A stretch of DNA of 20,965 bases, taken from positions 1 through 20,965 of IMG/VR virus record IMGVR_UViG_3300009436_000138, one strand, 5' to 3'. Shown in pieces: positions 2,923-20,885 of the stretch (the first letter of the stretch is position 1; every line of letters starts with the position of its first letter). The notes beneath the pieces were generated by a model, which was given only the letters and a program-made list of their open reading frames with translations, did not search any database and was not told where the DNA came from. Origin of the DNA: a virus. The translations under genes and the position numbers were made by a program.

Positions 2923-3954
2923 TTATACGCCACCCAGACCTACGATCATACCACAAGCTTTAGGGTTAGTAACAGCTAGTGTGCACTCTTCTACGATCTG
3001 TCCAATAGTGCTATCACCTTGCTGACCAACTTCAGTTTCCTGAAGAGGACGCAGAGTAGCAACCTTGAAGAACGAGGGATCATATACTAACGCTGAGAAG
3101 TTTGCAGAGTTAGTAGTAGCGCCAGAACCAGTGTTATGAGCAAGACCCATAATGTAGTTAGGTACAATGCGGATTTCACCGAAGTCACTGTCGAACAACT
3201 CAATGCTCTGACGGATCTTACCGGTGTCATCTACGTTACGTACAGTGTTGTTACCAGTAGCATGGGCCTTAGAAGACAAGGTACGCTTGTTTAGCGGAGA
3301 AGTCATCAAAGTAGTAGCCTTACCACCAGCTTCATAGATAGCCTGCATAACGTCATCAACTTGGCTTAGCTCGATGTCGTTAAGGTTAGCATCAGAAGAA
3401 CCACGGTTAATAACACCAGCAGTACCGATACCAGTAGTTCCCGGAGCAGTATAAGCAGCAGTTTCACCACCGTTTACTACGAGAGCAGCATCGTTACAGT
3501 AAGCCTGATAACCACCCATAGTGCGAGTACCAGAACCGTTCTTGCTGTGGAAGCTGTGTACGGCATCATGCTCGAGGTCACGACGGAGTTCAGTACCACG
3601 CTTCTTGAGCTGATATGCATATTCGTCAGCAACACCGGCCTGATCTACAGCACGCTTAGTGCCAGAAACCTGTACGGTCTTAGAGTTAATCTGAGTGTAG
3701 TTACCCAGACGAGTACGGTCACCACCAGCAGTCTGAGCACCAGCTACAGTTGAGAAGGTAGAACCTTCAGCAACAGCGCCAGAACCGGGAGCTACGAGCT
3801 CATCAGTCTGCCACTCATGGTAGATTGCTTTAGCAGTGGTTTTGCCAATAGATGACAAGAATGGAGTCTCTTCACGAGAAATCATGGAGATAAAGTTCGC
3901 CAGATCTTGCTTCTCAGAAAGAGTACCAGTAGTTACAAAATTTGTTGCAGCCAT
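2923..3954 (-). CDS. Major capsid protein, SU10-type
   Basis: This 343-aa protein forms the icosahedral shell. The N-terminal signature LANFISMISREETPFLSSIG, followed by HEWQTDEL around residue 50, is typical of the SU10-like major capsid family (DUF5309). So are the SGTKRAVDQAGVADEYAYQ region and a C-terminus ending in a short beta segment, GMIVGLGGV. Length fits the family. It follows the scaffold gene by 39 bp, with AAGGAAA before the ATG, and is followed by a terminator hairpin. Local GC is visibly higher and codon choice more uniform than in neighbours, as often seen for very highly expressed capsid genes. No protease or fused maturation domain is visible in the window. Confidence 0.9.
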   Translation of the reverse strand: MAATNFVTTGTLSEKQDLANFISMISREETPFLSSIGKTTAKAIYHEWQTDELVAPGSGAVAEGSTFSTVAGAQTAGGDRTRLGNYTQINSKTVQVSGTKRAVDQAGVADEYAYQLKKRGTELRRDLEHDAVHSFHSKNGSGTRTMGGYQAYCNDAALVVNGGETAAYTAPGTTGIGTAGVINRGSSDANLNDIELSQVDDVMQAIYEAGGKATTLMTSPLNKRTLSSKAHATGNNTVRNVDDTGKIRQSIELFDSDFGEIRIVPNYIMGLAHNTGSGATTNSANFSALVYDPSFFKVATLRPLQETEVGQQGDSTIGQIVEECTLAVTNPKACGMIVGLGGV

Positions 3955-5737: not shown

Positions 5738-7954
5738 TTACATCATACCTCCACCGCCTTGTTCGAGCATAGCTTTGATAGCCTCTGGGTTAATGCCTTG
5801 ACTTTCTGGCCCCATAGGTTGATTAGGCTGTGGCTGCGCACCTTTTGGTAAGGTCATAGTTTGACTAATTAAATCCTGAGCCATCTGATACATTTGTTGT
5901 ACGTCAGGTTGTTCCGGGACATCAGCCCCTTCTTTTGTTGCAGATATACTTAATCTTGACCATTCTTGATATGATTTATCTAAAGCAACTACAAGCTGTT
6001 TCAGGTTATCTTGGATTGCATTCTGAGACTGTATATTAGTATAGTCAACGTTTGCTTGATCCAAAGCAAGCTTAGCTTCTTGGGTTTGAGTGGCAAGTTC
6101 TTTAGCTTTTTGATCTTGCACCGACTGTTGCTTCTTGTCTTCCATTGCGGATTTCTTATACTCATCGGAAGTATAGTCTACTATGTAGTCTAATGGATCT
6201 TCACCTAACGCCTCAATGGTTTTGTAAGCAATGACTGCTGGAGCTGTAGGGTCTATTGCCCCTTTGTACCCAGCTTGCATGAGAGCAGGTAAAACCTTCT
6301 CACCTATCATTGCCATTTTACCCATCACAGTTTTATTACTTGCATCTCCCACATCTGCCTCTACCTGTAACATCATTTCGTTAGGAAGGTCCTTAACATC
6401 AATAGTGCTGTAGAAGTTATTGCGGTCGTAATATTTCATTGATTGGGTACCCATATCCATCTTCATCGTCTTATACACACCTTCACAAAGTGTGGCTAGG
6501 CCGGTCTCCATGAATCTTCTGGCGATATGTTGAATGCGGGTTTGTGCTGCTGTTTGCACAGAAGATACTTTCTGTTCTGAGTTACCAGACACATAGAGAG
6601 TATCATTAAGTCCTTGGGCTGCCTTTGACAGACCATTGGCTTGTTCTTTGTGCTGCTGCAAGAACTCAAGCAGTGGCACAGTACCTGTAGACAAAGCCTC
6701 TGGTGGCATGTTCTTAACAGCCATTGCAGGGTTTCCGTTAGTAGGTACAATTTGTTTTGGCTTCATATTCTGCAGTGCAGAGAAGTCTACAACATTAGGG
6801 TCTGCCAACTTAGGGGAGTAGTTAGTCAAGTAAGTGTTCTCAACAAAACCACGCAGTATAGCAGTAGACGCTAATGTAGAAGGGCGAGTCATATCTGCCA
6901 TAGACAGACCAGCCCATTCGTGAGGGATATCAAAGGCCTTAAGCTCAGCTATTTGAATACAATCGACATCTTCTTCAAAGAGCACATGATCTCCAATTGT
7001 AATAAATCGCTTAAGTTCTGAGATACCATCGCCATCCCGGTCAACACTAATCCAGCACTCTAAAACACTAGCTAGTTGATTAGCTTCTGTCAATTGCACT
7101 TGGGTAAAGTTAGTGTTGCTAAGACCCACTGAGGTTCTTCGGGCAGCTTTCTCATTGTTAATAGCTTGTGCAAAGGTATGGCTATCATTACCTGTATTGT
7201 CCCAGTCAATGCTATCTGCATGATCTGGATACTGTTTGCGAATCTCTGAGCGAGTCATTTCTGTTCTTAGGCCTACAAAGGATGCATCTTCTATAGAGGA
7301 AGCTCCTGCGCTTATAAGAAAAGACTCTGGCTCAATGTTACGGATCTTAATACCACTTTTGTTATGGGTACGCTTGATACGTACTTCTTCGTACACACCA
7401 ATCCCATTTATATACAAGTCACCTACTACTTCTACTTCAGAGTCTGCAAGCAGCACATCCAAGGCTTCAGGGGTAATCTCTTCGTATTCTTCAAAGGTAA
7501 AGTCGTAGTCCTCTACGTACTCCCAGACTACCGCTGCGTTCTTCCAAAGAAGTGCAGCCTTCATCCAAGTGTTGATAATCTCCCAACCTTTATTCTTTTT
7601 AAAGATACAGTAGTTAACTACATCAGAAGCTACCCTAGCTTGGTGAACACCAGTCGCACTTTGTTGTAGTGGTATAAATCTTGCTAATTTTTTATTATTG
7701 AGTAACAACTCAGAAAGTACTGCAGAGTACCCCTCAATTGCCTCAACGGTGTCTGATGACACAATTTTGGATACACCCTGAGGGGCTAAGTGCCCTATAG
7801 GTTGCATCGCATATTCGTATGTTGCTTTCTCTCGCTCATCTGATAGATCAGAGGAATCAAGGAAGTTACCTTGTGAGTTTGCTACTTCAGAGTGGATAAT
7901 GTTCATCAACTCGTCATCTGTTACTGCTTCCATATATCCATCTGGATCATTCAT
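5738..7954 (-). CDS. Portal protein
   Basis: This 738-aa protein lies between TerL and the head genes, and its length suits the large portals of P22/SU10-like phages. The N-terminal third has the usual portal layout: REKATYEYAMQPIGHLAPQG, then helices with SAVLSELLLNNKKLARFIP and an aromatic segment around VWEYVEDYDFTFEEYEE. The middle contains VLECWISVDRDGDGISELKRF, a stem-type segment seen in this portal class. Residues about 595-665 are Gln/Lys-rich coiled coil and the last 40 residues are Pro/Gln/Gly-rich, ending GGGGMM. It would form the dodecameric ring through which TerL drives DNA. AGAGGA precedes ATG 7954. Confidence 0.88.
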   Translation of the reverse strand: MNDPDGYMEAVTDDELMNIIHSEVANSQGNFLDSSDLSDEREKATYEYAMQPIGHLAPQGVSKIVSSDTVEAIEGYSAVLSELLLNNKKLARFIPLQQSATGVHQARVASDVVNYCIFKKNKGWEIINTWMKAALLWKNAAVVWEYVEDYDFTFEEYEEITPEALDVLLADSEVEVVGDLYINGIGVYEEVRIKRTHNKSGIKIRNIEPESFLISAGASSIEDASFVGLRTEMTRSEIRKQYPDHADSIDWDNTGNDSHTFAQAINNEKAARRTSVGLSNTNFTQVQLTEANQLASVLECWISVDRDGDGISELKRFITIGDHVLFEEDVDCIQIAELKAFDIPHEWAGLSMADMTRPSTLASTAILRGFVENTYLTNYSPKLADPNVVDFSALQNMKPKQIVPTNGNPAMAVKNMPPEALSTGTVPLLEFLQQHKEQANGLSKAAQGLNDTLYVSGNSEQKVSSVQTAAQTRIQHIARRFMETGLATLCEGVYKTMKMDMGTQSMKYYDRNNFYSTIDVKDLPNEMMLQVEADVGDASNKTVMGKMAMIGEKVLPALMQAGYKGAIDPTAPAVIAYKTIEALGEDPLDYIVDYTSDEYKKSAMEDKKQQSVQDQKAKELATQTQEAKLALDQANVDYTNIQSQNAIQDNLKQLVVALDKSYQEWSRLSISATKEGADVPEQPDVQQMYQMAQDLISQTMTLPKGAQPQPNQPMGPESQGINPEAIKAMLEQGGGGMM

Positions 7955-8097: not shown

Positions 8098-9735
8098 TTA
8101 TAGCCAGCTAGTTTGGTCCTCCGAAAACTGCTGGTTCTGGAAGCCTACCTTAGTATTGATCAAACGATCTCTATGGGTTCTTAGGACTTCAAGGGCTATA
8201 GCTGTTGCAATTACAGTATCATCGTGTGCGCCTGTAATAGCATTGGTACGACCATTCGCATCAGCCACGTAATCCATACACTCTTGGATGATTCGCGGGG
8301 ACGCAAGGTTAATGTCATCGTTCTCGATTGCGTTCTTAAGATGCGCTATGATCATGGGTTTAGTAGCTTGCGTTGTACGCCAACCAAGTCGGCTGCCTTC
8401 CTCATTAGACACGTTAGCTACTTTGGTTTGATGGTATAGATTAACATAGTTCATCTGCTTGAGACGATTGAGGGTTGCTATACCTAAGGAATTAGATTCA
8501 ACAGCTAGTAAAGCATTGTTGTAATATCTTCCAAGATAGAATAGTAAATCTCCGTATTGAGTGGGGTCTATCCTATTATTTCTATATAAAGCTACAACTT
8601 CATTACTAGAGTTCATTACTACACATGCCGAGGAGTCTTGACCTACTCCTAATGCACAGTCAGCACCAATTACAAAGTTCTCATCAAACTTAGGGTACTC
8701 GAATATAGACACATCACCTTCACTATAATCTTCGAAGGAGGATGAACTCTGGTTAAACATTTGTCTTTTAAGTACCGTTGAGGGTACTAAGGATTGTAGC
8801 TTTTCAATATTAAACACATTAGCTCCAGAAGTCTGAAAGGCTTCTTCGGGGCTCAATGGGTATTCTTGTCGGAACTTACTAAGGCCTCCTTCTGCTACCT
8901 TCAATCTCCTCCAGTATATCTGTTCTAAGTCAAGATCATACTTCTCTTGTATCTTAGACTCTTCCTCTGATAGGGTCTCTGCGAAAGCTTCAGGCTCTAG
9001 GACTGTTCGTCTGTATTCCGGCATCAAGTACCATGGCACAAATATAGGAAGATAGTCATTCTCTCCCTCTACTGCACCCTTCCATAATCTATGGAATTCG
9101 TTACCAACACCATTAGCGGTGGACTCAAGTATTACTTCCGTACCATCGGCTTCTGATATGCCCTGAAAGAGACCTGCAAGGATCTTCTCATCATGGGTCC
9201 AAAAGGCTACCTCGGAGAGGTGAGCAATGGTTGGTGTAGTACCTCGACCAGCTTCAGGGGATCCTGCTGTGTAAAGTCTGTATCCTGAATCATTGTGATC
9301 AAACAGGATCTCTTTAGCATTGGATTTCTTAAAGACTGGTTTAAACTCTTCAGGCATGTTGGAAATGGTATTCCTTGACATAGTGAAGAGTGCATCAGAT
9401 GTGGCTGAGTCATGTGCCATAACAACTGACTTATTGTATGCATTGAAGTAGGACTTCCAGAAAACCCTTGCGGTCGCAAAGGTCGATAGTCCCATTTGTC
9501 TGCCCTTAAGGATTATGGCCCTGACACGGCCTGTTTCCTCAAGTTGTTTATTGATCTTCTCATTTACTATCTTCTGAGCATCATTAAACTCAAAGGGCAC
9601 AAAGCCCAGTGATGAATTCTTTGTTAAGATCTTTATCTGTTCTTTAGAGAATAACTCAAAGTTACTCTCATAATCTGCTAGCTTCTTACGTCTCTGGGCT
9701 TCTTTAGCCAATGCTAGCTTCTTCTTGTTATCCAT
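8098..9735 (-). CDS. Terminase large subunit (packaging ATPase and nuclease)
   Basis: This 545-aa motor cuts concatemeric DNA and pumps it into the procapsid. The ATPase part shows a Walker A variant KGRQMGLST (residues 77-85), a Walker B segment AHLSEVAFW with likely catalytic E175, and a coupling motif ILESTANG (202-209). The C-terminal RNase H-like nuclease shows an acidic set: D359 in VIGADCALG, E413 in LLAVESN and D505/D506 in GAHDDTVIATA. All expected motifs are present and in order, so it looks intact. GGGAGGAC precedes ATG 9735, and a 6-bp hairpin lies just upstream in the leader. It is the first gene of the leftward late operon. The likely small subunit is on the other strand near 19.2 kb. 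Confidence 0.95.
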   Translation of the reverse strand: MDNKKKLALAKEAQRRKKLADYESNFELFSKEQIKILTKNSSLGFVPFEFNDAQKIVNEKINKQLEETGRVRAIILKGRQMGLSTFATARVFWKSYFNAYNKSVVMAHDSATSDALFTMSRNTISNMPEEFKPVFKKSNAKEILFDHNDSGYRLYTAGSPEAGRGTTPTIAHLSEVAFWTHDEKILAGLFQGISEADGTEVILESTANGVGNEFHRLWKGAVEGENDYLPIFVPWYLMPEYRRTVLEPEAFAETLSEEESKIQEKYDLDLEQIYWRRLKVAEGGLSKFRQEYPLSPEEAFQTSGANVFNIEKLQSLVPSTVLKRQMFNQSSSSFEDYSEGDVSIFEYPKFDENFVIGADCALGVGQDSSACVVMNSSNEVVALYRNNRIDPTQYGDLLFYLGRYYNNALLAVESNSLGIATLNRLKQMNYVNLYHQTKVANVSNEEGSRLGWRTTQATKPMIIAHLKNAIENDDINLASPRIIQECMDYVADANGRTNAITGAHDDTVIATAIALEVLRTHRDRLINTKVGFQNQQFSEDQTSWL

Positions 9736-9754
9736 TTGTAGTCCTCCCAGACCA

Positions 9755-9770
9755 CTTACGATACCGTAAG
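9755..9770 (-). promoter_or_regulatory. Hairpin in the TerL leader
   Basis: CTTACG-ATAC-CGTAAG forms a perfect 6-bp stem with a 4-base loop, about 10 bp upstream of the TerL Shine-Dalgarno GGGAGGAC. It could modulate translation or mRNA stability of the first late gene. Confidence 0.35.
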
Positions 9771-9909
9771 CTTTACCTTAAAGTTTACCAGAGAGAGAAG
9801 TACCATAGGAATATAATCTATAGTATTACCTCTAAGGGTTCCTGCCGTGTCGAGGATCCCCATAGCCCCTTAGGGGGGAGGGGGGTGTTAGCCTCTACAC
9901 ATAGATATC

Positions 9910-9927
9910 TGTATTTTCTATAAGGAC
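9910..9927 (-). promoter_or_regulatory. Promoter-like CTTATAG motif, leftward copy 1
   Basis: On the minus strand the core CTTATAG (9924-9918) sits in GTCCTTATAGAAAATACAG. It points towards TerL, about 180 bp upstream of its start. The same core recurs in the other intergenic regions, in the orientation expected for the gene that follows. No host sigma70 -35 hexamer is apparent. Confidence 0.3.
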
Positions 9928-10054
9928 CTATAGGGCCCTTAAAGTCTTAAGGCCCCCTCGTACCTTAAGCTACCATATCTTGTGGATACCTTTAGGATAT
10001 CAGTCTCTTAAGCTACTGTCGGGTAAGCTCCAACACCGGTGGTGTTTCCTACGT

Positions 10055-10078
10055 ATACTCTCTCTCTATAAGGTACTA
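10055..10078 (-). promoter_or_regulatory. Promoter-like CTTATAG motif, leftward copy 2
   Basis: On the minus strand AGTACCTTATAGAG (10077-10064) is identical over 14 bp to 19204-19217 on the plus strand, upstream of the probable small terminase. A related ACTTATATAGAGGG lies at about 10175-10162. On the opposite strand a TATAAT (10077-10082) adjoins this site but has no good -35 partner. Confidence 0.35.
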
Positions 10079-10084
10079 TAATGA

Positions 10085-10120
10085 ATTTAAAGGATTTAAA
10101 GGATTTAAAGGATTTAAAGG
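10085..10120 (+). repeat. Tandem repeat, four perfect 9-bp units, inside a 15-codon mini-ORF
   Basis: ATTTAAAGG is repeated four times without mismatch. The unit length is a multiple of three, and the array lies in an open frame from ATG 10081 to TAG 10126-10128 that would encode MNLKDLKDLKDLKGL. AAGG at 10070-10073 is well placed as a ribosome site. It could be a leader peptide for the rightward operon, a replication-origin iteron array, or an unexpressed repeat. The sequence alone does not decide. Confidence 0.6.
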
Positions 10121-10459
10121 GTCTTTAGGGAGAACACATAATAACCCCCCATGATGCTATACCCTCTATATAAGTCCAGACCCCCCTCAGAGATCCCACG
10201 AGGTTCCTGTGAGTACCGTCCGTTCAGTACTCCCCGTAAGTCCTGTTAGGTGCTCCGTAGTGAAGAAGAGGATTCTCACGAATCCTTTAAGGAATCCCTA
10301 GAAATCTCCCAGATATCTGGTAGAGCAGGGGATCCCGGGGGCACCGAGGGCATACTTGCCTTAGGGCTCCCTGAGAACCCGTAAGACCCTTTCGAGTCTG
10401 GAAGTAGTCTGCGGGTACACATACTTATTAGAGTCCCTTAGGGGGCATGGAGCACTGTT

Positions 10460-10738
10460 ATGGAACATCTATTGTTTGACCCGTGGGGCATCTTACTGAC
10501 TGCCTCAGCTCTCGGCATCATTGGGTCAGTTGCCGTGTTTGGTATTCTCGAGATTCTTTCTAAGTATCTCAAGCCTAAGCGTCGAGGTGCTACTCCGATC
10601 TCGCAGTTACTTGACCTTCAGTACTCCGAAGATGTGTCAAGGTACAGGCGTGCTCGGGCTAAGTGTCATGTGTTTCTTGCTTTGTCGATACTGTTCATCG
10701 TATCCTTAGCTGGTTACATCGTATCATCTCTGTTGTAA
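10460..10738 (+). CDS. Small membrane protein with two predicted helices (92 aa)
   Basis: Residues about 9-32 (ILLTASALGIIGSVAVFGIL) and 70-91 (VFLALSILFIVSLAGYIVSS) are hydrophobic and long enough to span the membrane. The loop between them is rich in Arg/Lys (KPKRRG, RYRRARAK), which by the positive-inside rule puts it in the cytoplasm with both ends outside. GGAG lies 8 bp before ATG 10460. It is the first clear gene of the rightward module. A small two-helix protein could be a holin, but no endolysin is next to it, and an early host-takeover or membrane-anchor role is equally possible. No family is recognised. Confidence 0.7.
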   Translation: MEHLLFDPWGILLTASALGIIGSVAVFGILEILSKYLKPKRRGATPISQLLDLQYSEDVSRYRRARAKCHVFLALSILFIVSLAGYIVSSLL

Positions 10739-10773
10739 GTTAGTAGCCCTTGGATCCTTTCAGGGGCTATCGT

Positions 10774-10859
10774 AGTTACAACGTAACTGGGGCTCCTGGC
10801 GGAGCCCTTAAGGTATCCTTGGGATGCCAGTACTATTCTGGCTTCTCGCTTTGGATACC
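10774..10859 (+). promoter_or_regulatory. Series of hairpins in the leader of the first gp2.5-like gene
   Basis: Three structures follow each other. AGTTAC-AAC-GTAACT is at 10774-10788. GGGCTCC-TGGC-GGAGCCC is at 10790-10807. A nested pair has outer arms GGTATCC (10812-10818) and GGATACC (10853-10859) around GCCAG/CTGGC (10826-10842). None is followed by a T-run, so a structured 5' leader that controls the next gene, or an RNA processing site, is likelier than a terminator. Confidence 0.45.
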
Positions 10860-10900
10860 ACTACCTTAACCTAGTGGATTAACCCAAGTGGAGAAATATC

Positions 10901-11437: not shown

Positions 11438-11478
11438 GAGGCTGGTCTTTCCTGCGCGGAGAGATCGGCCTCTTTTTT
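11438..11478 (+). terminator. Rho-independent terminator
   Basis: GAGGCTGGTCT (11438-11448) pairs with AGATCGGCCTC (11462-11472) over 11 bp, including two G-T wobbles, followed by six T (11473-11478). It ends the transcript of the upstream gp2.5-like gene. Confidence 0.85.
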
Positions 11479-11586: not shown

Positions 11587-11883
11587 ATGCAATACGGTAC
11601 AAGAGTAAGCTCAGCTAAAGTAGTACAGAAAACGTGGACTGTTATACACAGTGCTAATGCAGTAGAGATGAAAGTAGTAACTGATTGGTACCCTAAAAGC
11701 CAACGTATATCTAGCGGAATCTATTTAGGTAAACGTTCACTGCCTTACGGTGAAAGATTAGTAGCCAACGGAATCTTCAAGGTCAAAGGTCACAAGACTG
11801 TAGCCCTAGTGTCTCCCGATGGCAAGCGTAACCCAGTCTATGTAGACATTAAAGATCTCGAGGTAATCCCAAATGGAATTTAA
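11587..11883 (+). CDS. Unknown basic protein (98 aa), first gene of the amidoligase operon
   Basis: The start at 11587 has CGAGGA about 8 bp upstream. The protein is basic and beta-rich: a segment VVQKTWTVIHSANAVEMKVV, then RLVANGIFKVKGHKTVALVSPDGKRNPVYVDIKDLEVIPNG, which has the look of a small barrel of the SH3/KOW type. No family is recognised. It overlaps the next gene by 11 bp and opens an almost gapless operon, so it is probably co-expressed with the amidoligase enzymes, but nothing shows a direct role with them. Confidence 0.7.
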   Translation: MQYGTRVSSAKVVQKTWTVIHSANAVEMKVVTDWYPKSQRISSGIYLGKRSLPYGERLVANGIFKVKGHKTVALVSPDGKRNPVYVDIKDLEVIPNGI

Positions 11884-12055
11884 TTTCTCTGATATATCTG
11901 ATGATGGCCTTAGGACTTCAGCTATCAACCGTTATGTGAAGCGTATCAATCAGTACAATGGCAGATGTCCTGCTGATGAGTCTGTTGATTTACGTGTACG
12001 CATTGTAAAGTTTTACTTACGAATAGAAAAGGTGATAATCAAATGGAAGATCTAA
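11873..12055 (+). CDS. Unknown small basic protein (60 aa)
   Basis: ATG 11873 lies inside the end of the previous gene, with CGAGG 9-10 bp upstream. The protein has an acidic, helical N-terminus (MEFNFSDISDDG) and a basic C-terminal half (RVRIVKFYLRIEKVIIKWKI). It overlaps the following 28-aa gene by 13 bp. No family is recognised. Coupling on both sides and a good ribosome site support it being real. Confidence 0.6.
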   Translation: MEFNFSDISDDGLRTSAINRYVKRINQYNGRCPADESVDLRVRIVKFYLRIEKVIIKWKI

Positions 12056-12129
12056 TTCTCTTATTCATAGGTGCCTTAGTTGTTGTACTAGGTATTTACT
12101 TTTATGTGCCAGACCAAGGAGATGACTAA
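12043..12129 (+). CDS. Single-helix membrane micropeptide (28 aa)
   Basis: ATG 12043 is preceded by AAAAGGTG. The frame reads MEDLILLFIGALVVVLGIYF and then YVPDQGDD to TAA 12127-12129. Residues 4-21 are a clean membrane-spanning stretch between an acidic N-terminus and an acidic tail. The stop overlaps the ATG of the 313-aa gene in a TAATG arrangement, and that gene's Shine-Dalgarno AAGGAG is inside this frame. Overlaps on both sides and a ribosome site make it a credible gene despite its length. It could anchor a partner at the membrane. The function is unknown. Confidence 0.6.
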   Translation: MEDLILLFIGALVVVLGIYFYVPDQGDD

Positions 12130-13070
12130 TGTCCGTGTCATTTGAAGTTGAAACCAATACCAGTAAAGTATTGAAGTTCATGTCCCGTGCTTGCTTTGCC
12201 GGTGTGAACCATGTGATTACACCTCGGGAAAACCAGCAAGGTGTTGGCATAAAAAGGATTACTTACAAACCTTTCTATCAAAACATATATGACAGGGACA
12301 TAGACACTTCCGTTGATACCTATCATATGAATGATGATATGTCATGGGATTTAGCTAACAAGTGGTGGGATTACATGCTTAGCTTACCCTTCGTGTCAGA
12401 ACTATTGCCTACCAATCAGTCACAACATAGCAAAGCATACAAGCAAGGTTTACAAGTAGACTGTGATGCTAACGCTGATAGAGTAATGCTAGTGTTGTTT
12501 CTCCTTAGGCTCCCTCAGTTTTCATCTGGTATTGTAAGAAGCTGGGCAAGGCTTGTCTCTTATCACAAAGCTCACCCCGATACTGCATTTGTAATAGCAC
12601 TAGGGTTAAACAACAGAATCGCTAACTGTAAGTACAAAGAAGGTGAAGAACATACCGACCCTGAGAACTGCCTTACAGCAAAGATGGTAGATCGTATCTA
12701 TTCTCAGACTTGTTCAGAGAACAGTGTGATATACAACGAGTACTTTACTGTTCGTGGTGCAAAGATTCTGTTGAACAGATTAACTTCTCAAGAACCTGAT
12801 GAAAGTTTATTCAATGGAGAGCAAGAATCCTTTTCAAGATGCAGTAAGTACATAAGGTACAATAAGACAGAGCCAAGAGCAATCGGTAGGTTGTTAGTTA
12901 AGTACCCTTCAAGGTCTTATCGTCGTGGTAACTTTACCCTAAAGGTCATAAAAGATATACTCAAGATAGACCGAGTTGCTCGCTTTGATGACTGCTTGTA
13001 CTTAAACCATAATGAATGCAATATTAACCCAAGTCAAATGCAAGAGATTATATCTCTAATAGAATCTTAA
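12129..13070 (+). CDS. Unknown protein (313 aa) at the head of the amidoligase genes
   Basis: Strong coupling to the upstream micropeptide (TAATG, AAGGAG 8 bp before). I recognise no known domain. The N-terminal 100 residues are mixed (VSFEVETNTSKVLKFMSRA). A region around residues 55-80 is Trp-rich (DDMSWDLANKWWDYM). The C-terminal third holds basic aromatic segments (RCSKYIRYNKTEPRAIGRLL, YPSRSYRRGNFTLKVIKDIL). The segment starting SVSFEVETNT vaguely resembles the first strand of glutamine-synthetase-fold amidoligases (a G-x-E-x-E type strand), and 'LQVDCDANADRVMLVLFLLRL' recalls their H-x-H helix region without the histidines. A degenerate third amidoligase relative is possible but weakly supported. 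It ends 10 bp before the first clear amidoligase. Confidence 0.75.
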   Translation: MSVSFEVETNTSKVLKFMSRACFAGVNHVITPRENQQGVGIKRITYKPFYQNIYDRDIDTSVDTYHMNDDMSWDLANKWWDYMLSLPFVSELLPTNQSQHSKAYKQGLQVDCDANADRVMLVLFLLRLPQFSSGIVRSWARLVSYHKAHPDTAFVIALGLNNRIANCKYKEGEEHTDPENCLTAKMVDRIYSQTCSENSVIYNEYFTVRGAKILLNRLTSQEPDESLFNGEQESFSRCSKYIRYNKTEPRAIGRLLVKYPSRSYRRGNFTLKVIKDILKIDRVARFDDCLYLNHNECNINPSQMQEIISLIES

Positions 13071-13080
13071 CGGAGAGTTT

Positions 13081-13887
13081 ATGTTATACGAATCTAAATT
13101 GGAAAATGTAACAGTAGGTGCAGACCCTGAGGTTTTCGTAGCGACAACAGAGGGTGACATCTCTTCTGTAATTGGTAAGCTAGGTGGTAGTAAAGCTCAC
13201 CCTTTACCTGTAGCAGATGGTGCCTTGCAAGAAGACAATGTTCTTGCTGAGTTTAACATACGGCCTGCAAAGAACAAGATAGAGTTCATATACAATATGA
13301 ATTCTGTTATGTCATCTCTAAGAAAAGCCTTACAAAACAAAGGGTTACAACCAGTTGTAATTCCTAGTCATGTCTTTTCTAAAGGTAAGCTTGAGAGCTA
13401 TGGTCATCAAGCTATGGAGTTTGGCTGCAGCTCTGAATGGAATGCTTGGAGTCGTAAGGAAATGCCGAGGCCTAACGGGGCTAAGGTTAACTTAAGAACT
13501 GCTGGTGGTCACGTTCATGTTGGCTATGACAACCCTTGCAGAGGTAGTGCAGAGAGTCTTATTAAGATGCTCGACTTTACCCTTGGTGTCCCTTCAGTCC
13601 TTATAGATAACGACAATGCAAGGCGTAAACTGTATGGTAAAGCAGGCTCGATGAGACATAAGCCTTACGGTGTAGAGTATCGTACCCTTAGTAACTTCTG
13701 GTTAAACTCAGATGAACTGATGTCTTGGGTCTATGATACAACCCTTTGGTCCACTGATAACTTAGATAAACTTAAAGACTACTTAGAAGTATGTAACCCT
13801 AAGGATGTCCAGAAAGCTATCAACAAAAGTGATCAAGGGTTAGCATGGGAAATTGTTAGTGAATTAGAAATGGAGATACCTTTATGA
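13081..13887 (+). CDS. phiEco32-like amidoligase (COOH-NH2 ligase, type 2)
   Basis: This 268-aa enzyme belongs to the glutamine-synthetase/gamma-glutamylcysteine-ligase fold, which activates a carboxylate with ATP and joins it to an amine. Visible signatures are GADPEVF (13-19), LAEFNIRP (55-62, with E57), GGHVHVGY (142-149, with metal-type H144 and H146), a basic segment RRKLYGKAG (181-189) and YGVEYRTLSNFW (196-207, with E199 and R201). This series is specific to the phage amidoligase family first noted in phiEco32, and all key positions are present. GGAGAG precedes ATG 13081, and the stop overlaps the next start (ATGA). The substrate is not predictable. A second amidoligase of a different subfamily follows one gene later. 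Confidence 0.88.
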   Translation: MLYESKLENVTVGADPEVFVATTEGDISSVIGKLGGSKAHPLPVADGALQEDNVLAEFNIRPAKNKIEFIYNMNSVMSSLRKALQNKGLQPVVIPSHVFSKGKLESYGHQAMEFGCSSEWNAWSRKEMPRPNGAKVNLRTAGGHVHVGYDNPCRGSAESLIKMLDFTLGVPSVLIDNDNARRKLYGKAGSMRHKPYGVEYRTLSNFWLNSDELMSWVYDTTLWSTDNLDKLKDYLEVCNPKDVQKAINKSDQGLAWEIVSELEMEIPL

Positions 13888-14576
13888 CAGTGAGTATGTT
13901 TTATGATATGAACCTCAGGGATATAGCTGCAACCTACGAAGGTACTGTAGTGCAACTCGATTCACCAGATGATGATGGCCTGTACCCTGTAAAGATAGTA
14001 GATGTAAGCAGGGAGAACTACAATATAGTTGTAAGGAAAGTATCAGGTGAGCATATGGATGTACCTATCTTAGACAAAAGGTACAAGTTTTCAAATAAGT
14101 TCCCCACTCTTGGTATGATTAATGTAGCTGACCACGTATGCTATGTCAGTAGGAAAGCTCAACGTCAATGGAAGAAAGGTTTAAGATTACACAATCTTTC
14201 AGTTAGAACATTTGATACAGATCTGTTGAATCTTCTTAATGAGGAAGCGAATACATCTTATCGTACATACACTGATGACTTAGAGTTTAAGCTATACAAT
14301 CATAAGTATACTCCTTACTTTGAAGCCTTAGAATCTGTCAATGATGGTGATAAAGTTGCAAGAGCTATCTCACCTGACTTCTGTCTAAGCAACAGATACA
14401 ACTGTGCTAAACCATTACTATACTACAGAGACCATGCTGTAGGTGTAGTGAACAATTATACCGTGACTATCAGTAAACAGTTAGCTCACATAATTCCAAT
14501 CCTAAAGAGGAACATACCAAATGGATACGGTTCAATCATTGTGGAGACTGAGCAAGATGTCTGCACCGCAAGCTGA
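13884..14576 (+). CDS. Unknown protein (230 aa) between the two amidoligases
   Basis: ATGA overlap with the first amidoligase and a 56-bp overlap with the second show tight coupling. GGAGAT precedes ATG 13884. The N-terminal 100 residues look like a small beta domain (AATYEGTVVQLDSPDDDGLYP, then VKIVDVSRENYNIVVRKV). The middle has RKAQRQWKKGLRLHNLSV, the C-terminal part is mixed, and it ends ...VCTAS. No catalytic motif or known family is recognised. Its place between two amidoligases suggests a partner, a substrate-binding factor or the target of the pathway. That is inference from context only. Confidence 0.75.
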   Translation: MTVSMFYDMNLRDIAATYEGTVVQLDSPDDDGLYPVKIVDVSRENYNIVVRKVSGEHMDVPILDKRYKFSNKFPTLGMINVADHVCYVSRKAQRQWKKGLRLHNLSVRTFDTDLLNLLNEEANTSYRTYTDDLEFKLYNHKYTPYFEALESVNDGDKVARAISPDFCLSNRYNCAKPLLYYRDHAVGVVNNYTVTISKQLAHIIPILKRNIPNGYGSIIVETEQDVCTAS

Positions 14577-15432
14577 CTTTGGAGAATTAGTTTGCAATAC
14601 CAAGATAGGGTTAGAAGTAGAGGTAGAAGGTGTGCTTAACCCGGAAAGAGTACGTGGTTGGAAAGTAACAACCGATGGTTCACTTCGTAATGAAGGTGTT
14701 GAGTATGTATTCAACGGACCAATAGGCGGTGCACCTGCCTGTAAGCGTATCTCTGATCTACATAATGCTATATCAAACATGAGTAATGCTGACTTCTCTG
14801 CCCGAACATCCCTTCATGTTCATATGGATGTACGAGATTTATCTTGGAACCAAGTTATGCAGGTAGTTATACTGTATGCTATGGTAGAACCTTACCTGTT
14901 TAGTATATGTGGTAATGAGAGAGAAGAAAGTATATACTCTCTATCTTTATACCGAGGTAAGCAGCAGATACAAGACTTGTCTGAACTGATAAGGCTAGGG
15001 CCGGGTGCTGTAAGTGGAGGTAGACTGACTAAGTATACAGCTCTTAACTTGTTATCCTTACCTACCTTTGGGTCCCTTGAGTTCCGTGGACATAAGGGTA
15101 CTAGCGATAAGCGTACTATCATTAACTGGGTTAACCACTTACTGTCCCTAAAGAAGTACGTGTTAAACCCTAACAAAGAGATTAACAATCTCCCAAAGAT
15201 ACTAAGCACTGATGGTCACATCGCAATGCTCAGGGAAATCTTTAATGATAAGTTAGTAGTGGCTAACATTAAGCATGCTAACAGTGTGCGTAGAAAGATC
15301 TATGAAGGTGTAAACGTAGGTGAAGACTTATTATTCTCAAGTGTTATGCGAGATACATCTAATAGAATTTTAACTAATAACAAAGGCCAAGGCCAAATGG
15401 ATAAACTAAAGGACAAACTATGTGTGGATTAG
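14521..15432 (+). CDS. Amidoligase, Amidoligase_2-type
   Basis: This 303-aa enzyme has the ordered signatures of the Amidoligase_2 group: GLEVEVEG (30-37, three acidic positions for metal-ATP), TDGSLRNEGVEYVFNGP (51-67), SLHVHMDV (97-104, H99 and H101), a long helical middle, and KYTALNLLSLPTFGSLEFRG (171-190, E187 and R189) followed by HKGTSD. These match an ATP-dependent carboxylate-amine ligase of the same fold as the neighbour but a distinct family. The start at 14521 is chosen because AAAGAGG lies 10 bp upstream. ATG 14557 would give a shorter N-terminus but has no such site. It overlaps the 230-aa gene by 56 bp and the amidotransferase by 13 bp. Confidence 0.85.
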   Translation: MDTVQSLWRLSKMSAPQADFGELVCNTKIGLEVEVEGVLNPERVRGWKVTTDGSLRNEGVEYVFNGPIGGAPACKRISDLHNAISNMSNADFSARTSLHVHMDVRDLSWNQVMQVVILYAMVEPYLFSICGNEREESIYSLSLYRGKQQIQDLSELIRLGPGAVSGGRLTKYTALNLLSLPTFGSLEFRGHKGTSDKRTIINWVNHLLSLKKYVLNPNKEINNLPKILSTDGHIAMLREIFNDKLVVANIKHANSVRRKIYEGVNVGEDLLFSSVMRDTSNRILTNNKGQGQMDKLKDKLCVD

Positions 15433-16568
15433 TAGGTGTTGTAGGTAATGATATTTCCTATGTAAGTAACAAAGTGTTTAAACAATTGCTGTACATCGAT
15501 GCTCTTCGTGGACCTCATAGTACTGGTATTGCACGTAACAACGTTAAGAATAATGTATCAGTGTACAAACGTGCATTGAATTCTACAGATTTCTTACAGC
15601 TAGATACAACAAAATCTTTCATTGGAGTTGACACTGACTTCCTTATGGGTCATAACAGGTACGCTACCCAAGGTGAAATCAATGATACAAATGCTCACCC
15701 TTTCACTTACGGTAATGTAACCTTGTGCCACAACGGTACACTTACAGATCAATCTCCCTTACCTGATTACAAAAACTTTGAAGTTGACAGCGAAAACATT
15801 GCATATGCTATGGGATTAGCTGAAAACCCTAAAGATGTAGTTAGCAAGTTGGTTGGTGCATTTGCATTGACATGGTACAATGATTACGAACTCAAGTATT
15901 ATATTGTTCGTAACAAAGAAAGACCCATGTTTATTGCTAAAGAGAAAGGTAAAGACCTGTACTACTACGCATCTGAAGAACATATGCTTCACCTTGTTCT
16001 TGGTCGCAATGGTATTAAGTATGAGATCAATGAGCTACCAGTAGGTAAACTTGTTTCGTTTGATCTAAGTAAGTCTGTAACCCAACTAAAGTTCACTGAT
16101 GTTAAGCTAGCAAAGCCAAAGCCCATCACTTACAATACGGGCAAATTCATAAACTATGGAAGAAATGTAGGCTCTTACCCTAGTAATACTACTTATAAGA
16201 AACCAAATCCTTTATCTCATTACAAGTTAAGGGTTGGGGATGAGGTTGAGTTCTATACTTCAGGGTTACCTGATGTACTACCAAGTAACATTACCGGTGT
16301 ACTTAAGGGCATTAGTACTTGCAAGAAGCCTATCAAAATTAAATGTTTTAATCAACCTAATGATTCTCTTGCAGGTTACTACACAGCTATAGTAACTTCT
16401 CTTATAAATGAAAGTGGACATGATACTCTTATTGTATCTGAACCTTGGCTAGCAGAAGTTGTTATAGATGACGCAAACAATTCACATAGAACAGAAGTAG
16501 TGAATAACTTAGTTGCAAAAAATGAAGTACTGGCATCCACTCAAACCCAAGAGGTTATCAAGTTTTGA
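15420..16568 (+). CDS. Class II glutamine amidotransferase
   Basis: This 382-aa protein starts MCGLVGVVG. Cys2, exposed after Met removal, is the N-terminal nucleophile that releases ammonia from glutamine. Further hallmarks are DALRGPHSTGIA (28-39), MGHNRYATQGE (76-86), NAHPF (91-95), CHNGTL (103-108) and DSEN (123-126), equivalent to the glutamine-binding set of GlmS. The glutaminase domain ends near residue 215. No sugar-isomerase or asparagine-synthetase domain follows. The last 150 residues contain a small beta-rich unit (LRVGDEVEFYTSGLP...GVLKGISTCKK) of unknown role. AAAGGA precedes ATG 15420, which overlaps the upstream amidoligase. It likely supplies nitrogen to the amidoligases or ATP-grasp enzyme, or works as a transferase on a gamma-glutamyl compound. 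Confidence 0.9.
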   Translation: MCGLVGVVGNDISYVSNKVFKQLLYIDALRGPHSTGIARNNVKNNVSVYKRALNSTDFLQLDTTKSFIGVDTDFLMGHNRYATQGEINDTNAHPFTYGNVTLCHNGTLTDQSPLPDYKNFEVDSENIAYAMGLAENPKDVVSKLVGAFALTWYNDYELKYYIVRNKERPMFIAKEKGKDLYYYASEEHMLHLVLGRNGIKYEINELPVGKLVSFDLSKSVTQLKFTDVKLAKPKPITYNTGKFINYGRNVGSYPSNTTYKKPNPLSHYKLRVGDEVEFYTSGLPDVLPSNITGVLKGISTCKKPIKIKCFNQPNDSLAGYYTAIVTSLINESGHDTLIVSEPWLAEVVIDDANNSHRTEVVNNLVAKNEVLASTQTQEVIKF

Positions 16569-17788
16569 ATAATGTATTTGTTGTGCCTTATAAAACAGAA
16601 AGTAATTCAGCAAAGCAGCTGTCTTCTTTTCTAAAGTGTAAACGAATGAGACTAAACAACTCTACTCTTTCAGATAGAGAAGGTCTCAAGTTAATTAACT
16701 GGGGTAACTCTACTGTAAACCTATCCCACTTACCCAGTGCAAAAGTGTTTAACAAACCTGATAACATTAGACTTGCATCTCATAAGATAGAATTCTTTAG
16801 AAGAATATCTAAGTTTAATGAAAATAGCTCAGTGATTGTTAACATACCAGACTGGACTACTTCTGTAAGAGAAGCTAGGAACTGGTATGCAGACGGTAAC
16901 GATGTTGTTTGTCGTCATGTACTTCAGGGTCATTCAGGTGATGGGATAGAGCTTGTCAAGTTTAATGAAGATATTAGTGCAAGCAATGCTGTACCTAAGG
17001 CACCCTTGTACACCAAGTACTCTAAGAAGAAAGACGAGTACCGTGTACATGTTGTAGCTGGTAAAGCAATCTTTGTACAACGCAAAGCAGTTCATCACTC
17101 AACAAGTTCTGCTAACTACCAGATACGGAACGTAGCTAATGGTTTTGTATTTGCAACTAGAGACTTGTCTCCTGATCCATCTATTATTTCTTCAGCAGTG
17201 AACGCAGTAAATGCTTTAGGTTTAGACTTTGGCGCAGCTGATGTAATGTGGAATGAAAGAAGAAAGACTGCAACTGTTATTGAAGTCAACACTGCTTGTG
17301 CTTTAGAGAGTAGCACTGGAGCTACAAGATACAAAGCTGCAATGTATAACTTAATAAACAATAATGAGCAAGTAAGTTGGGCAGAGCCTGCTCCAATGGA
17401 GTTTGTAACTGAAGAAGAAGCAAGTGAGACTAATCATCTTCGTGCTAATTTTGAAGAACAAATGAGAGTTTGGGGATCTGCATCTTATAATGAAGGCTGG
17501 CACCACCATGATCACTTTAATGGACAAGCTGTAACACTAGATCCCTATCTGTATACCTTCCTAGTCTCAGCTGGAGAAGAAGGTGTAGGTGTTCAGGGCT
17601 TAGAGTCCCTTGCATTCTATTCAAACCAAGATGACCACCATGTAATTGAATTTGAAATACATGAAAAGAATGTCAGAGGTGCTACCTTAGTAGGGTACCC
17701 CGGTGGTCAAGCAGATTTATCTTTCCATATAGAAGTAGAAGTTCCTTACAAGTACCTACGAATAAATCTATTCAATAGTGGAGCGTAG
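16565..17788 (+). CDS. ATP-grasp ligase with an extra C-terminal region, TTG start
   Basis: This 407-aa protein begins at TTG 16565, overlapping the amidotransferase stop (TTGA), with AAGAGG 10 bp upstream. The nearest ATG (16572) is out of frame. ATP-grasp features are a preATP-grasp domain with SAKQLSSFL and IINWG-like strands, a central VCRHVLQGHSGDGIELVK (115-132, glycine-rich loop), PLYTKYSKKKDEYRVHVVAG (147-166), GLDFGAADVMW (219-229) and VIEVNTACALE (238-248, with E240 and N242 as expected metal ligands). Residues 270-407 are not part of the usual fold: a charged linker, a His-rich GWHHHDHFNG and beta-type segments to the end. ATP-grasp enzymes make amide or peptide bonds through acyl-phosphates, so this is a second, independent ligase chemistry in the operon. 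Confidence 0.85.
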   Translation: MNNVFVVPYKTESNSAKQLSSFLKCKRMRLNNSTLSDREGLKLINWGNSTVNLSHLPSAKVFNKPDNIRLASHKIEFFRRISKFNENSSVIVNIPDWTTSVREARNWYADGNDVVCRHVLQGHSGDGIELVKFNEDISASNAVPKAPLYTKYSKKKDEYRVHVVAGKAIFVQRKAVHHSTSSANYQIRNVANGFVFATRDLSPDPSIISSAVNAVNALGLDFGAADVMWNERRKTATVIEVNTACALESSTGATRYKAAMYNLINNNEQVSWAEPAPMEFVTEEEASETNHLRANFEEQMRVWGSASYNEGWHHHDHFNGQAVTLDPYLYTFLVSAGEEGVGVQGLESLAFYSNQDDHHVIEFEIHEKNVRGATLVGYPGGQADLSFHIEVEVPYKYLRINLFNSGA

Positions 17789-17794
17789 ACTATA

Positions 17795-18193
17795 ATGTCA
17801 AATGAGTTGTATAAAGTAGCAGTGTATGGTACACTACGTCAAGGTAATGGTAACAACATACTGTTATCTAATTCAAATTTCTTAGGTAAAGGAAAAACAT
17901 TACCTAAGTTTGAAATGTTTTCTTTAGGTGGCTTCCCCGGTATCACTGAAGGCTCTACTCGTATTATAGTAGAGGTGTACGAGGTGGACTCAGATACCCT
18001 CTCTCGCCTTGATAGGCTTGAGGGGTACCGTGGTAAAGGTGAAAGCAACTTTTACGATAGGGAGGTTATCAGTACTCCCTATGGTAACGCTATGACTTAT
18101 ACCCTAAGGGACGAGAGATACTCCAGTCAAGAACGTATAGTAAGTGGTGATTGGGAGGATCGAAACAAGGTAAAACTAAAGGATCTTATATGA
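17795..18193 (+). CDS. Gamma-glutamylcyclotransferase-like protein (AIG2/GGCT fold)
   Basis: This 132-aa protein has the family's first motif VAVYGTLRQGNGN (8-20), the GGFPGI loop (45-50), strand IIVEVYEV (57-64) and LDRLEGY (72-78), whose Glu is at the catalytic acid position, then FYDREVI (86-92). Such enzymes release 5-oxoproline from gamma-glutamyl peptides or amines, or act on gamma-glutamylamines. GGAG lies upstream of ATG 17795, 6 bp after the ATP-grasp gene, and the stop overlaps the next start (ATGA). In this operon it would remove gamma-glutamyl groups from an intermediate or product. All key residues look intact. Confidence 0.85.
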   Translation: MSNELYKVAVYGTLRQGNGNNILLSNSNFLGKGKTLPKFEMFSLGGFPGITEGSTRIIVEVYEVDSDTLSRLDRLEGYRGKGESNFYDREVISTPYGNAMTYTLRDERYSSQERIVSGDWEDRNKVKLKDLI

Positions 18194-18414
18194 GATTGTA
18201 TGCTTATGCAGAACCGAAGTATATTGATGGTCAAATAACAGATGATGTAAAGGTTATAACTGATCTCGGTATACTAATTGATGAATGGGAAAGCTATTCT
18301 CAGGTTGCACGACTGAGAAATCAAGACGTAACGGTCTTAGATTGTGTGGAAGACTGGGTAATAGATCACTACGCTTGGGATATTACATACCAAATGGAGG
18401 ATACCATGACTTAA
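18190..18414 (+). CDS. Unknown acidic protein (74 aa), last gene of the operon
   Basis: The start ATG 18190 overlaps the stop of the cyclotransferase-like gene (ATGA) and has AAAGGA a few bases before. An in-frame ATG at 18151 would extend it 13 residues into the upstream gene and is less likely. The protein is small and acidic with several aromatics (LGILIDEWESYSQVARLRN, DCVEDWVIDHYAWDITYQM). No family is recognised. Coupling suggests it is co-expressed with the amidoligase set. Confidence 0.65.
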   Translation: MRLYAYAEPKYIDGQITDDVKVITDLGILIDEWESYSQVARLRNQDVTVLDCVEDWVIDHYAWDITYQMEDTMT

Positions 18415-18481: not shown

Positions 18482-18949
18482 ATGTCAGCAGTTCTTGGAA
18501 CCTCAATCATCCGTGATGTTACACTCAACTACGTTAAAGTAGATCCTGAAAATCCAACTGATCCTTTCGGTACCCTTCAATGGGAATGCCAGATCGTTGT
18601 ACCTTCTGAACGTGCTTCAGAGCTAGAGGGATACGGTAGTGTGCGTCCAGTTAAGGATGATCCAAGCCGAATTGCTATCAACCTAAAGCGCAAAGCTGTT
18701 AGGAAAGATGGTGATGCCAACGATCCAGTGCAACTGGTAGATGGTAAGAAGCAAAAGATTGACCCAAAGATTAAAGTTGGTAATGGATCTAAGGGTAATG
18801 TCAAAGTGTATCGACGAGAGTACGATGTTGCTGGTCGTCAAGGTATCTCAACTATCCTTACTGCAATTCAGATCACTGATCTAATTGAGTACACTGGTTC
18901 AGTTGACTTCGATATCGATGACTCAGAAGCTGACTCCTCTGAGTTCTAA
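18482..18949 (+). CDS. Probable ssDNA-binding protein, gp2.5-like (copy 2)
   Basis: This 155-aa protein has the pattern of phage gp2.5-like/DUF2815-type SSBs. It shows N-terminal strands (VTLNYVKV, FGTLQWECQIVVP), a central VQLVDGKKQKIDPKIKVGNG followed by KGNVKVYRREYDVAGRQGIS and TILTAIQITDLIEY, and an acidic tail DFDIDDSEADSSEF ending in Phe. The tail would bind polymerase or helicase and compete with DNA. It lies 67 bp after the amidoligase operon behind an AT-rich stretch with AAAGG upstream of ATG 18482. The match to known SSB layout is better than for the copy at 10901. It is likely the main replication SSB. Confidence 0.7.
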   Translation: MSAVLGTSIIRDVTLNYVKVDPENPTDPFGTLQWECQIVVPSERASELEGYGSVRPVKDDPSRIAINLKRKAVRKDGDANDPVQLVDGKKQKIDPKIKVGNGSKGNVKVYRREYDVAGRQGISTILTAIQITDLIEYTGSVDFDIDDSEADSSEF

Positions 18950-20413: not shown

Positions 20414-20623
20414 ATGAGTATAGATTTTTTAGGAAAGAAACTAACCGCAGAGTATCGAAACGGTACAGGTATTGACATTGAGTTCGTTGATAGCCGACCA
20501 GTATGGGCGTACACAGAAGATGAAGACTTAATTGCTTTACCTTTTGAGGGCGTAGTAGTATTGCTGCCTTTAGTTATGATAACTTGGGGTAACGTTTACG
20601 TGGAGACAGAAGATGGGCAATAG
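20414..20623 (+). CDS. Unknown acidic protein (69 aa)
   Basis: GAGGA lies about 9 bp upstream of ATG 20414. The sequence is beta-rich (GIDIEFVDSRPVWAYTED) with one hydrophobic stretch (GVVVLLPLVMITWG) that is long enough to be buried or membrane-associated. It overlaps the glutaredoxin-like gene by 11 bp, so the two are coupled. No family is recognised. Confidence 0.65.
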   Translation: MSIDFLGKKLTAEYRNGTGIDIEFVDSRPVWAYTEDEDLIALPFEGVVVLLPLVMITWGNVYVETEDGQ

Positions 20624-20885
20624 ACTGCTGCTAGTATCTGGCCCCGGATGCTCCGGGTGTGTTCAGATGAAGGACAGGCTACAAGCTTTAGGTTTTTACG
20701 ATGAAGTTATTTTAATGGACATAGCAACCGACAGAGGTAAAGACTATGCCATGCAAAATAATATAAGAAGTGTACCCCTACTGATAAAAGAAGCTGCACC
20801 CGGGGCTATAATAGATATCCTTAGTGGTGCTAACCATACCGATGCTGCAATTAAAGGTTTCATCAATGCTGGAGGAAACAAATAA
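20613..20885 (+). CDS. Glutaredoxin/thioredoxin-fold protein
   Basis: A 90-aa protein with an N-terminal strand LLLVSGPGCSGCVQMKDRL carrying a CSGC redox centre (C13-C16). A DIATDRGKDYAMQNNIRSVPLL segment holds the conserved cis-proline (SVP), and the C-terminal helix follows. Length and motif order fit a minimal glutaredoxin. Such phage proteins commonly reduce ribonucleotide reductase, but no reductase gene is visible in the window. GGAGA precedes ATG 20613, and the stop overlaps the next start. Confidence 0.85.
   Translation: MGNRLLLVSGPGCSGCVQMKDRLQALGFYDEVILMDIATDRGKDYAMQNNIRSVPLLIKEAAPGAIIDILSGANHTDAAIKGFINAGGNK

Follow-up and report, generated by a model that had tools for sequence, protein, structure and literature searches.

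An amidoligase operon in a podovirus-type record carries a known phage cassette that recurs with putative gamma-glutamyl release enzymes

The window, by which we mean the whole stretch of DNA analysed here, is a virus record of 20,965 bases. Its minus strand carries a podovirus-type head module that includes the terminase (8098-9735), the portal (5738-7954) and the major head protein (2923-3954), the last of which is 51% identical to its counterpart in Roseobacter phage CRP-7. The plus strand carries an early-type module, and eleven ORFs, all on this strand, form a single operon at positions 11587-18414. The gaps at the ten junctions are, in order, -11, -13, -1, +10, -4, -20, -13, -4, +6 and -4, so that eight of the ten are overlaps; these values are computed with the ATG at 14557 as the start of the second amidoligase gene, for which the alternative ATG at 14521 would give an overlap of 56. 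The first-pass annotation had described one operon with mostly overlapping junctions, and its coordinates, order, overlaps and catalytic signatures all hold up. A terminator-like hairpin on the plus strand (11438-11472; 15 pairs with a T-rich tail) divides the operon from the upstream gene; it is the longest stem there, and the total of terminator-like sites in that region is no higher than chance would give. A comparison of the whole window with 50,697 phage records at the DNA level gives no match. The LUZ24-type nick motif TACTRTGMC occurs once in the window, as expected by chance, and therefore gives no sign of a tf-type nicking system, and the PADLOC models of known anti-phage defence find nothing convincing.

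Two genes of the operon encode glutamine-synthetase-fold (GS-fold) amidoligases. The first, lig1 (13081-13887), is a COOH-NH2 ligase of type 2 (PF14395, E = 3.7e-12, with 46.5 bits against a curated cutoff of 25; phrog_3815, 4.5e-88), and the second, lig2 (14557-15432), is an Amidoligase_2 protein (PF12224, 2.5e-5, with 24.7 bits against a cutoff of 22; phrog_7469, 3.9e-52). When about 30 divergent relatives are aligned, the conserved residues are E17, E57, H144, H146, E199 and R201 in lig1, and E32, E34, H99, H101, E187 and R189 in lig2. The identity of lig1 to every phage record is below 60% (best about 44%), and a comparison with PDB sequences gives no match.

Downstream of these lies gat (15420-16568), a class II glutamine amidotransferase (GATase) with a C-terminal extension (PF13522, 3e-14; phrog_4736, 6.3e-82), which is GlmS/PurF-like by PDB and NCBIfam comparison. 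It has the N-terminal Cys after Met, the Arg, the Asn-Gly and the Asp of this class (M1-C2, R80, H104-N105-G106 and D123), and C2 is kept in 28 of 31 relatives. CxxC pairs occur in the C-terminal part of the GATase in 17 of 33 relatives, and there is none in that of the window. The next gene, grasp (16565-17788), encodes an R2K-like ATP-grasp ligase, also with a C-terminal extension (phrog_2599, 2.5e-64). Its best Pfam matches are R2K_3 (2.2e-5, 25.1 bits against a cutoff of 26.3) and R2K_2 (15.3 against 26.2), and it weakly resembles alpha-L-glutamate ligases (NCBIfam MptN, 2.8e-7, and rimK_fam, 8.5e-6, each well short of its cutoff); E158, R160, D226, E240 and N242 are conserved among the roughly 30 relatives. 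The fifth enzyme, ggct (17795-18193), is a gamma-glutamyl (amine) cyclotransferase (GGCT) of the AIG2/GGACT type (PF06094, 7.4e-23, 81.8 bits against a cutoff of 22.8) and resembles the YtfP structure 1xhs (3e-18). Y11 and G12 of its YGTL motif are conserved, and the catalytic-type Glu76 is invariant in an alignment of similar depth. The window thus holds a COOH-NH2 ligase, an Amidoligase_2, a class II GATase, an ATP-grasp ligase and a GGCT in one operon. The first-pass annotation had read these enzymes, with intact catalytic signatures, from the letters alone; Pfam and PHROG matches bear out the assignments, and the check that it proposed, for missing catalytic residues, finds the residues in place.

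Between the two amidoligase genes is u230 (13884-14576; phrog_11055, 1e-16), which encodes a protein of 230 aa. It occupies this position in 35 of 39 lig1-positive whole records and in 93 of 95 further loci, and is a core part of the cassette. The protein is homologous to ORF47 of the LUZ24 group, which has the same gene position (profile E = 1.8e-9). Its AF2 model (pLDDT 82.6, pTM 0.75) gives weak, partial Tudor-like matches in Foldseek (best E about 1e-3), which suggest small SH3/Tudor-like beta barrels, and a binding or scaffold role may be envisaged on this basis.

A protein of 313 aa, u313 (12129-13070), is associated with the cassette at 15 loci found by profile. It is tied to other phages only by structure and bridging profiles: tblastn against the phage records gives no match, and its direct profile comparison with LUZ24 ORF49 is weak. 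The AF2 model has a pLDDT of 73 and is good only in the best of five models, the other four being worse. No PDB structure matches it, and the named viral matches in BFVD (two GAP52 proteins, and proteins of CVT22, CW02, RIO-1 and the Aeromonas phages LAh_6/8) all come from cassette phages, several from cassette-flanking genes. Assigned by length, these are GAP52 gp028 and gp029, CVT22 gp67 and RIO-1 gp7, just upstream of the cassette, and CW02 gp70, which lies at the right end of a record that has its cassette at the left end. As modelled, u313 belongs to a fold family without a PDB match. Both proteins had been proposed as candidate targets or partners of the enzymes, and the linkage is borne out for each, by the loci for u230 and by the cassette phages that supply the matches for u313.

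The remaining ORFs are small. The first gene of the operon encodes 98 aa (11587-11883); it is found by profile at 5 loci, all of the window's own clade, and has no Pfam or PHROG match. A clade-specific ORF of 60 aa (11873-12055) is found at 6 loci, with a weak PHROG match (0.054). The 28-aa peptide that follows (12043-12129) has a single hydrophobic segment of the membrane type, and its C-terminus is acidic, ending in PDQGDD. Twelve other loci, some of them overlapping and all from the window's clade, have a similar peptide with the end PDQ[GE][DE].. immediately upstream of u313. The last gene, of 74 aa (18190-18414), is found at 6 loci of its own clade, and has no Pfam or PHROG family match.

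The cassette itself is not of a new kind, and is already known from hundreds of phage records. It is found in LUZ24/PaP3, phiEco32-like, 7-11/GAP52, CW02 and RIO-1 phages and in hundreds more records, and the order lig1-u230-lig2-gat-grasp-ggct recurs, far beyond chance, in PaP3, UFV-P2, the phiEco32-like phage Bas87, GAP52 and many uncultivated phages; CW02, CVT22 and RIO-1 have rearranged forms. The relationship to phiEco32-type phages that had been suspected is supported, and Bas87 has the same gene order. In tblastn searches of the 50,697 phage records, lig1, lig2 and gat find 314, 336 and 338 records, respectively, with counts of 121/119/121 for Pseudomonas, 93/92/92 for Escherichia and 22/22/22 for Vibrio hosts. 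Of 95 further loci retrieved through lig1, 92 have lig2, 94 have gat, 91 have grasp and 93 have u230, and so the genes, when checked for linkage in relatives, do travel together. Relatives of lig1 are encoded in at least 534 viral-contig stretches, while 84,980 cellular genomes yield only 6 cassette loci; the pathway is therefore essentially viral. We had also considered that phage ZRK32 and Pseudomonas phage SCYZ1 might share one identical cassette, and rejected this, the stretch being about 85% identical.

The cluster had been presented at first mainly as an open puzzle. The cassette as such has been described and named: PMC5498523, following Hardies 2013 and Iyer 2009, reports a hypothetical seven-gene "peptidoglycan modification cassette" in RIO-1-like, phiEco32, 7-11, PA11, tf, LUZ24, PaP3 and CW02 phages that is thought to prevent superinfection, and PMC10580990 restates the idea. 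According to this published hypothesis, stem peptides or their precursors receive unusual amide links or amidations from the ligases and the GATase, and the altered surface excludes other phages. The host labels fit, since the cassette records come mostly from phages with Gram-negative hosts, but Pfam finds no signal or peptidoglycan-binding domain in the cassette proteins of the window, endolysin neighbours are seen in some phages and not generally, and a literature search found no experiment on the matter and no paper that tests the cassette enzymes. Peptidoglycan contains gamma-D-glutamyl links; GGCT, however, requires the alpha-amine of the gamma-glutamyl group to be free, and in an intact stem peptide that of D-Glu is not. 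We rank this reading first among the alternatives and consider it unlikely, with some real chance of being right.

A bearing on the chemistry comes from the genes that accompany the cassette. In CW02, CVT22 and PA11, a cassette neighbour labelled "glutamine amidotransferase" belongs to Peptidase C26, the family that includes gamma-glutamyl hydrolase and PuuD. The triad Cys82, His183 and Glu185 of this neighbour is invariant in seven aligned copies, and its median distance from lig1 is 2.4 kb. We searched for GGCT and C26 with profiles over whole records, in 50 near-complete records picked by lig1 alone. Forty-one of these have C26 only, eight have both, one has GGCT only and none has neither. 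The corresponding numbers for 17 earlier contigs are 2, 4, 10 and 1, and the last of these is cut by the contig end, so that 66 of 67 records carry one or both families and the single exception is a truncated one. (Twelve phage records, including CVT22 and PA11, are excluded from the count, as they were selected through C26 or GGCT matches.) Because every near-complete cassette record has GGCT or C26, removal of a gamma-glutamyl group is probably an obligatory step of the pathway. The chemistry is predicted from family membership, since GGCT-family and C26 enzymes have several substrates. The earlier suggestion that a gamma-glutamyl intermediate forms and is then cleared is supported as an idea, and the recurrence of a C26 partner strengthens it.

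The two families also appear complementary in the pooled table (Fisher p = 1e-5, uncorrected for relatedness). On the lig1 tree, there are at least 8 changes for GGCT and at least 5 for C26, with only 2 well-supported independent pairs, and mutual exclusion is not significant once the tree is allowed for. Exclusion of GGCT by C26 is not established, because the sequences are related and the independent pairs few, and we do not claim it.

The combination of a GS-fold ligase, an ATP-grasp enzyme and a GGCT also resembles the gamma-glutamyl cycle, and might accordingly make a soluble gamma-glutamyl peptide or a glutathione-like thiol for redox balance, or serve nitrogen or amino-acid supply. A thioredoxin-like gene at 20613-20885 of the window, and a glutaredoxin gene that adjoins the RIO-1 cassette, are in keeping with this, as is the interpretation of the phage ZRK32 genes as nitrogen-metabolism genes in an eLife paper (PMC10945688), although the growth promotion on which that paper relies comes from a whole phage preparation rather than from the enzymes. 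Two amidoligases, a GATase and the non-enzymatic u230 and u313 exceed what a glutathione-type synthesis needs, however, and the near-absence of the cassette from cellular genomes is unlike the distribution of ordinary metabolic genes borrowed from hosts. This alternative, second in rank, we regard as improbable. Ranked third, and very improbable, is hypermodification of DNA or nucleotides, in which an amino acid on a modified base would shield the phage DNA. Replication genes adjoin the cassette in many relatives, and some phages do put amino acids or amines on bases; against this, genes for a base hydroxylase, a thymidylate-synthase-like protein or a DNA transglycosylase show up neither in the cassette regions annotated in PaP3, UFV-P2 and Bas87 nor among the Pfam families of 95 neighbouring proteins.

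We favour, with a probability of about one half, a virus-specific pathway for an amide-linked glutamyl (or aminoacyl) conjugate from which the gamma-glutamyl part is then released. Two GS-fold ligases, an ATP-grasp ligase, a glutaminase domain and a GGCT are kept together with u230, their catalytic residues conserved, and ligation with a transient gamma-glutamyl group is the simplest chemistry that employs all the parts. The conjugate would be made early in infection, with the ligases spending ATP to couple a target carboxylate or amine with glutamate, or with ammonia that the glutaminase supplies from glutamine. The gamma-glutamyl group would be temporary, a carrier or protecting group that this phage would later take off with GGCT and many relatives with a C26 gamma-glutamyl hydrolase, while u230 would most likely hold the two amidoligases, the target, or all of these together through its small barrels. 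With low confidence, we place the target among host or phage macromolecules or carrier-bound peptides rather than free metabolites. Binding to a macromolecule is compatible with the Tudor/SH3-like barrels predicted for u230 and with the CxxC pairs in the GATases of many relatives. The weakness of the Tudor-like matches, and the window's GATase without such a pair, count against the proposed pathway.

A more specific form of this pathway would be a new kind of group-protection or tagging system, in which u230 organises both amidoligases into one complex, the target is macromolecular or carrier-bound (possibly u313 or, in this clade, the membrane peptide with the PDQ tail), and gamma-glutamyl removal by GGCT or C26 is obligatory; we offer it tentatively, as a proposal that has the odds well against it in its full detail. 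Overall, the observation made in the first-pass annotation is confirmed, and its interpretation is supported in part, which does not extend to any particular target. More than 300 sequenced phages have the cassette, among them Pseudomonas and E. coli phages used in the laboratory and in therapy, and so do more than 500 uncultivated viral contigs. The pairing with release enzymes, along with u230 and u313, narrows the chemistry and points to proteins for joint purification; with these two unrecognised partners in hand, the substrate question can be put to a direct test in a model phage such as LUZ24 or one of the phiEco32-type phages in the BASEL collection.

The protecting-group logic is known from the butirosin (BtrJ/BtrG) and putrescine (PuuA/PuuD) pathways, where the substrates are acyl-carrier-bound GABA and putrescine, respectively. 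As in those systems, a ligase predicted here to form a gamma-glutamyl amide is accompanied by a putative release enzyme, either a C26 hydrolase (as is PuuD) or an AIG2-type cyclotransferase (as is BtrG). Unlike them, the cassette has two GS-fold ligases, an ATP-grasp enzyme and a GATase together with u230 and u313, and the analogy is a chemical one only. The grasp protein has R2K_3 and R2K_2 as its top Pfam matches, and is in this respect like the R2K-clade ATP-grasp ligases (Burroughs 2015, PMC4431377), with scores just below the curated cutoffs of the models; it differs from R2K.3 in having the standard E-x-N motif (E240, N242) rather than ExGD, and from the clade in general in having GS-fold amidoligases as operonic partners. 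With respect to the published cassette phages (PMC5498523), the window is of a different lineage, having no DNA match and only the distant lig1 identity given above. Its lig2 and GATase are shorter, its ATP-grasp protein has the C-terminal extension, no primase/helicase adjoins the cassette, and there is one u313-type gene rather than two. The enzyme set is nevertheless identical to that of the published cassette, and the gene order, including the gene between the amidoligases, is the same as in LUZ24, PaP3, UFV-P2, GAP52 and the phiEco32-like phages.

The major head protein of the window (2923-3954) is 51% identical to that of Roseobacter phage CRP-7; a search of the CRP-7 genome for the COOH-NH2 ligase lig1, the gamma-glutamyl cyclotransferase, Peptidase C26 and u230 (the 230-aa protein between the amidoligases) found none of them, and the cassette is therefore not tied to the head module. 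The host of the window phage may be a marine member of the Rhodobacteraceae. At the contig edge, a minus-strand gene (3-1766) that runs off the contig encodes a long repetitive segment rich in Ala, Ser and Thr (SATASATSATAS...), and its product is probably a tail or fibre protein. The divergent head and early modules are separated by approximately 1.1 kb with sparse coding evidence (9736-10900), which includes a run of 9-bp repeats (ATTTAAAGG; 10070-10129). This region may hold an origin or serve in packaging or regulation. On the 3' side of the operon are genes for a Gp2.5-like single-strand-binding protein (18482-18949; phrog_112, 3.2e-9) and a thioredoxin-like protein (20613-20885; phrog_22, 7.6e-7).

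Immediately 5' of u313, the 313-aa protein gene, is a 28-aa plus-strand ORF (12043-12129) with one hydrophobic segment and a PDQ[GE][DE].. C-terminal tail. ORFs of this type (28-31 aa) occupy the same position in loci L006, L008 and L011-L017, and are limited to the window's clade; the peptide is a candidate membrane partner or target.

Some relatives encode a 176-209-aa protein after the ATP-grasp gene (L021:15651-16280, L022:8654-9184 and L023:10794-11357). It grouped with the ATP-grasp family in similarity clustering, perhaps because L018 and L019 encode it as a fusion with the ATP-grasp enzyme (641-657 aa in total).

Genes labelled "glutamine amidotransferase" in phages CW02 (L042:235-882), CVT22 (L053:6795-7439) and PA11 (L056:295-915) are members of Peptidase C26, the gamma-glutamyl hydrolase/PuuD type, as judged from Pfam matches for the first two and similarity for the third. 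The cassettes of "Poriferisphaera phage ZRK32" (L165, OP650935) and Pseudomonas fluorescens phage SCYZ1 are ∼85% identical over 5.2 kb; ZRK32 is reported as a planctomycete chronic phage.
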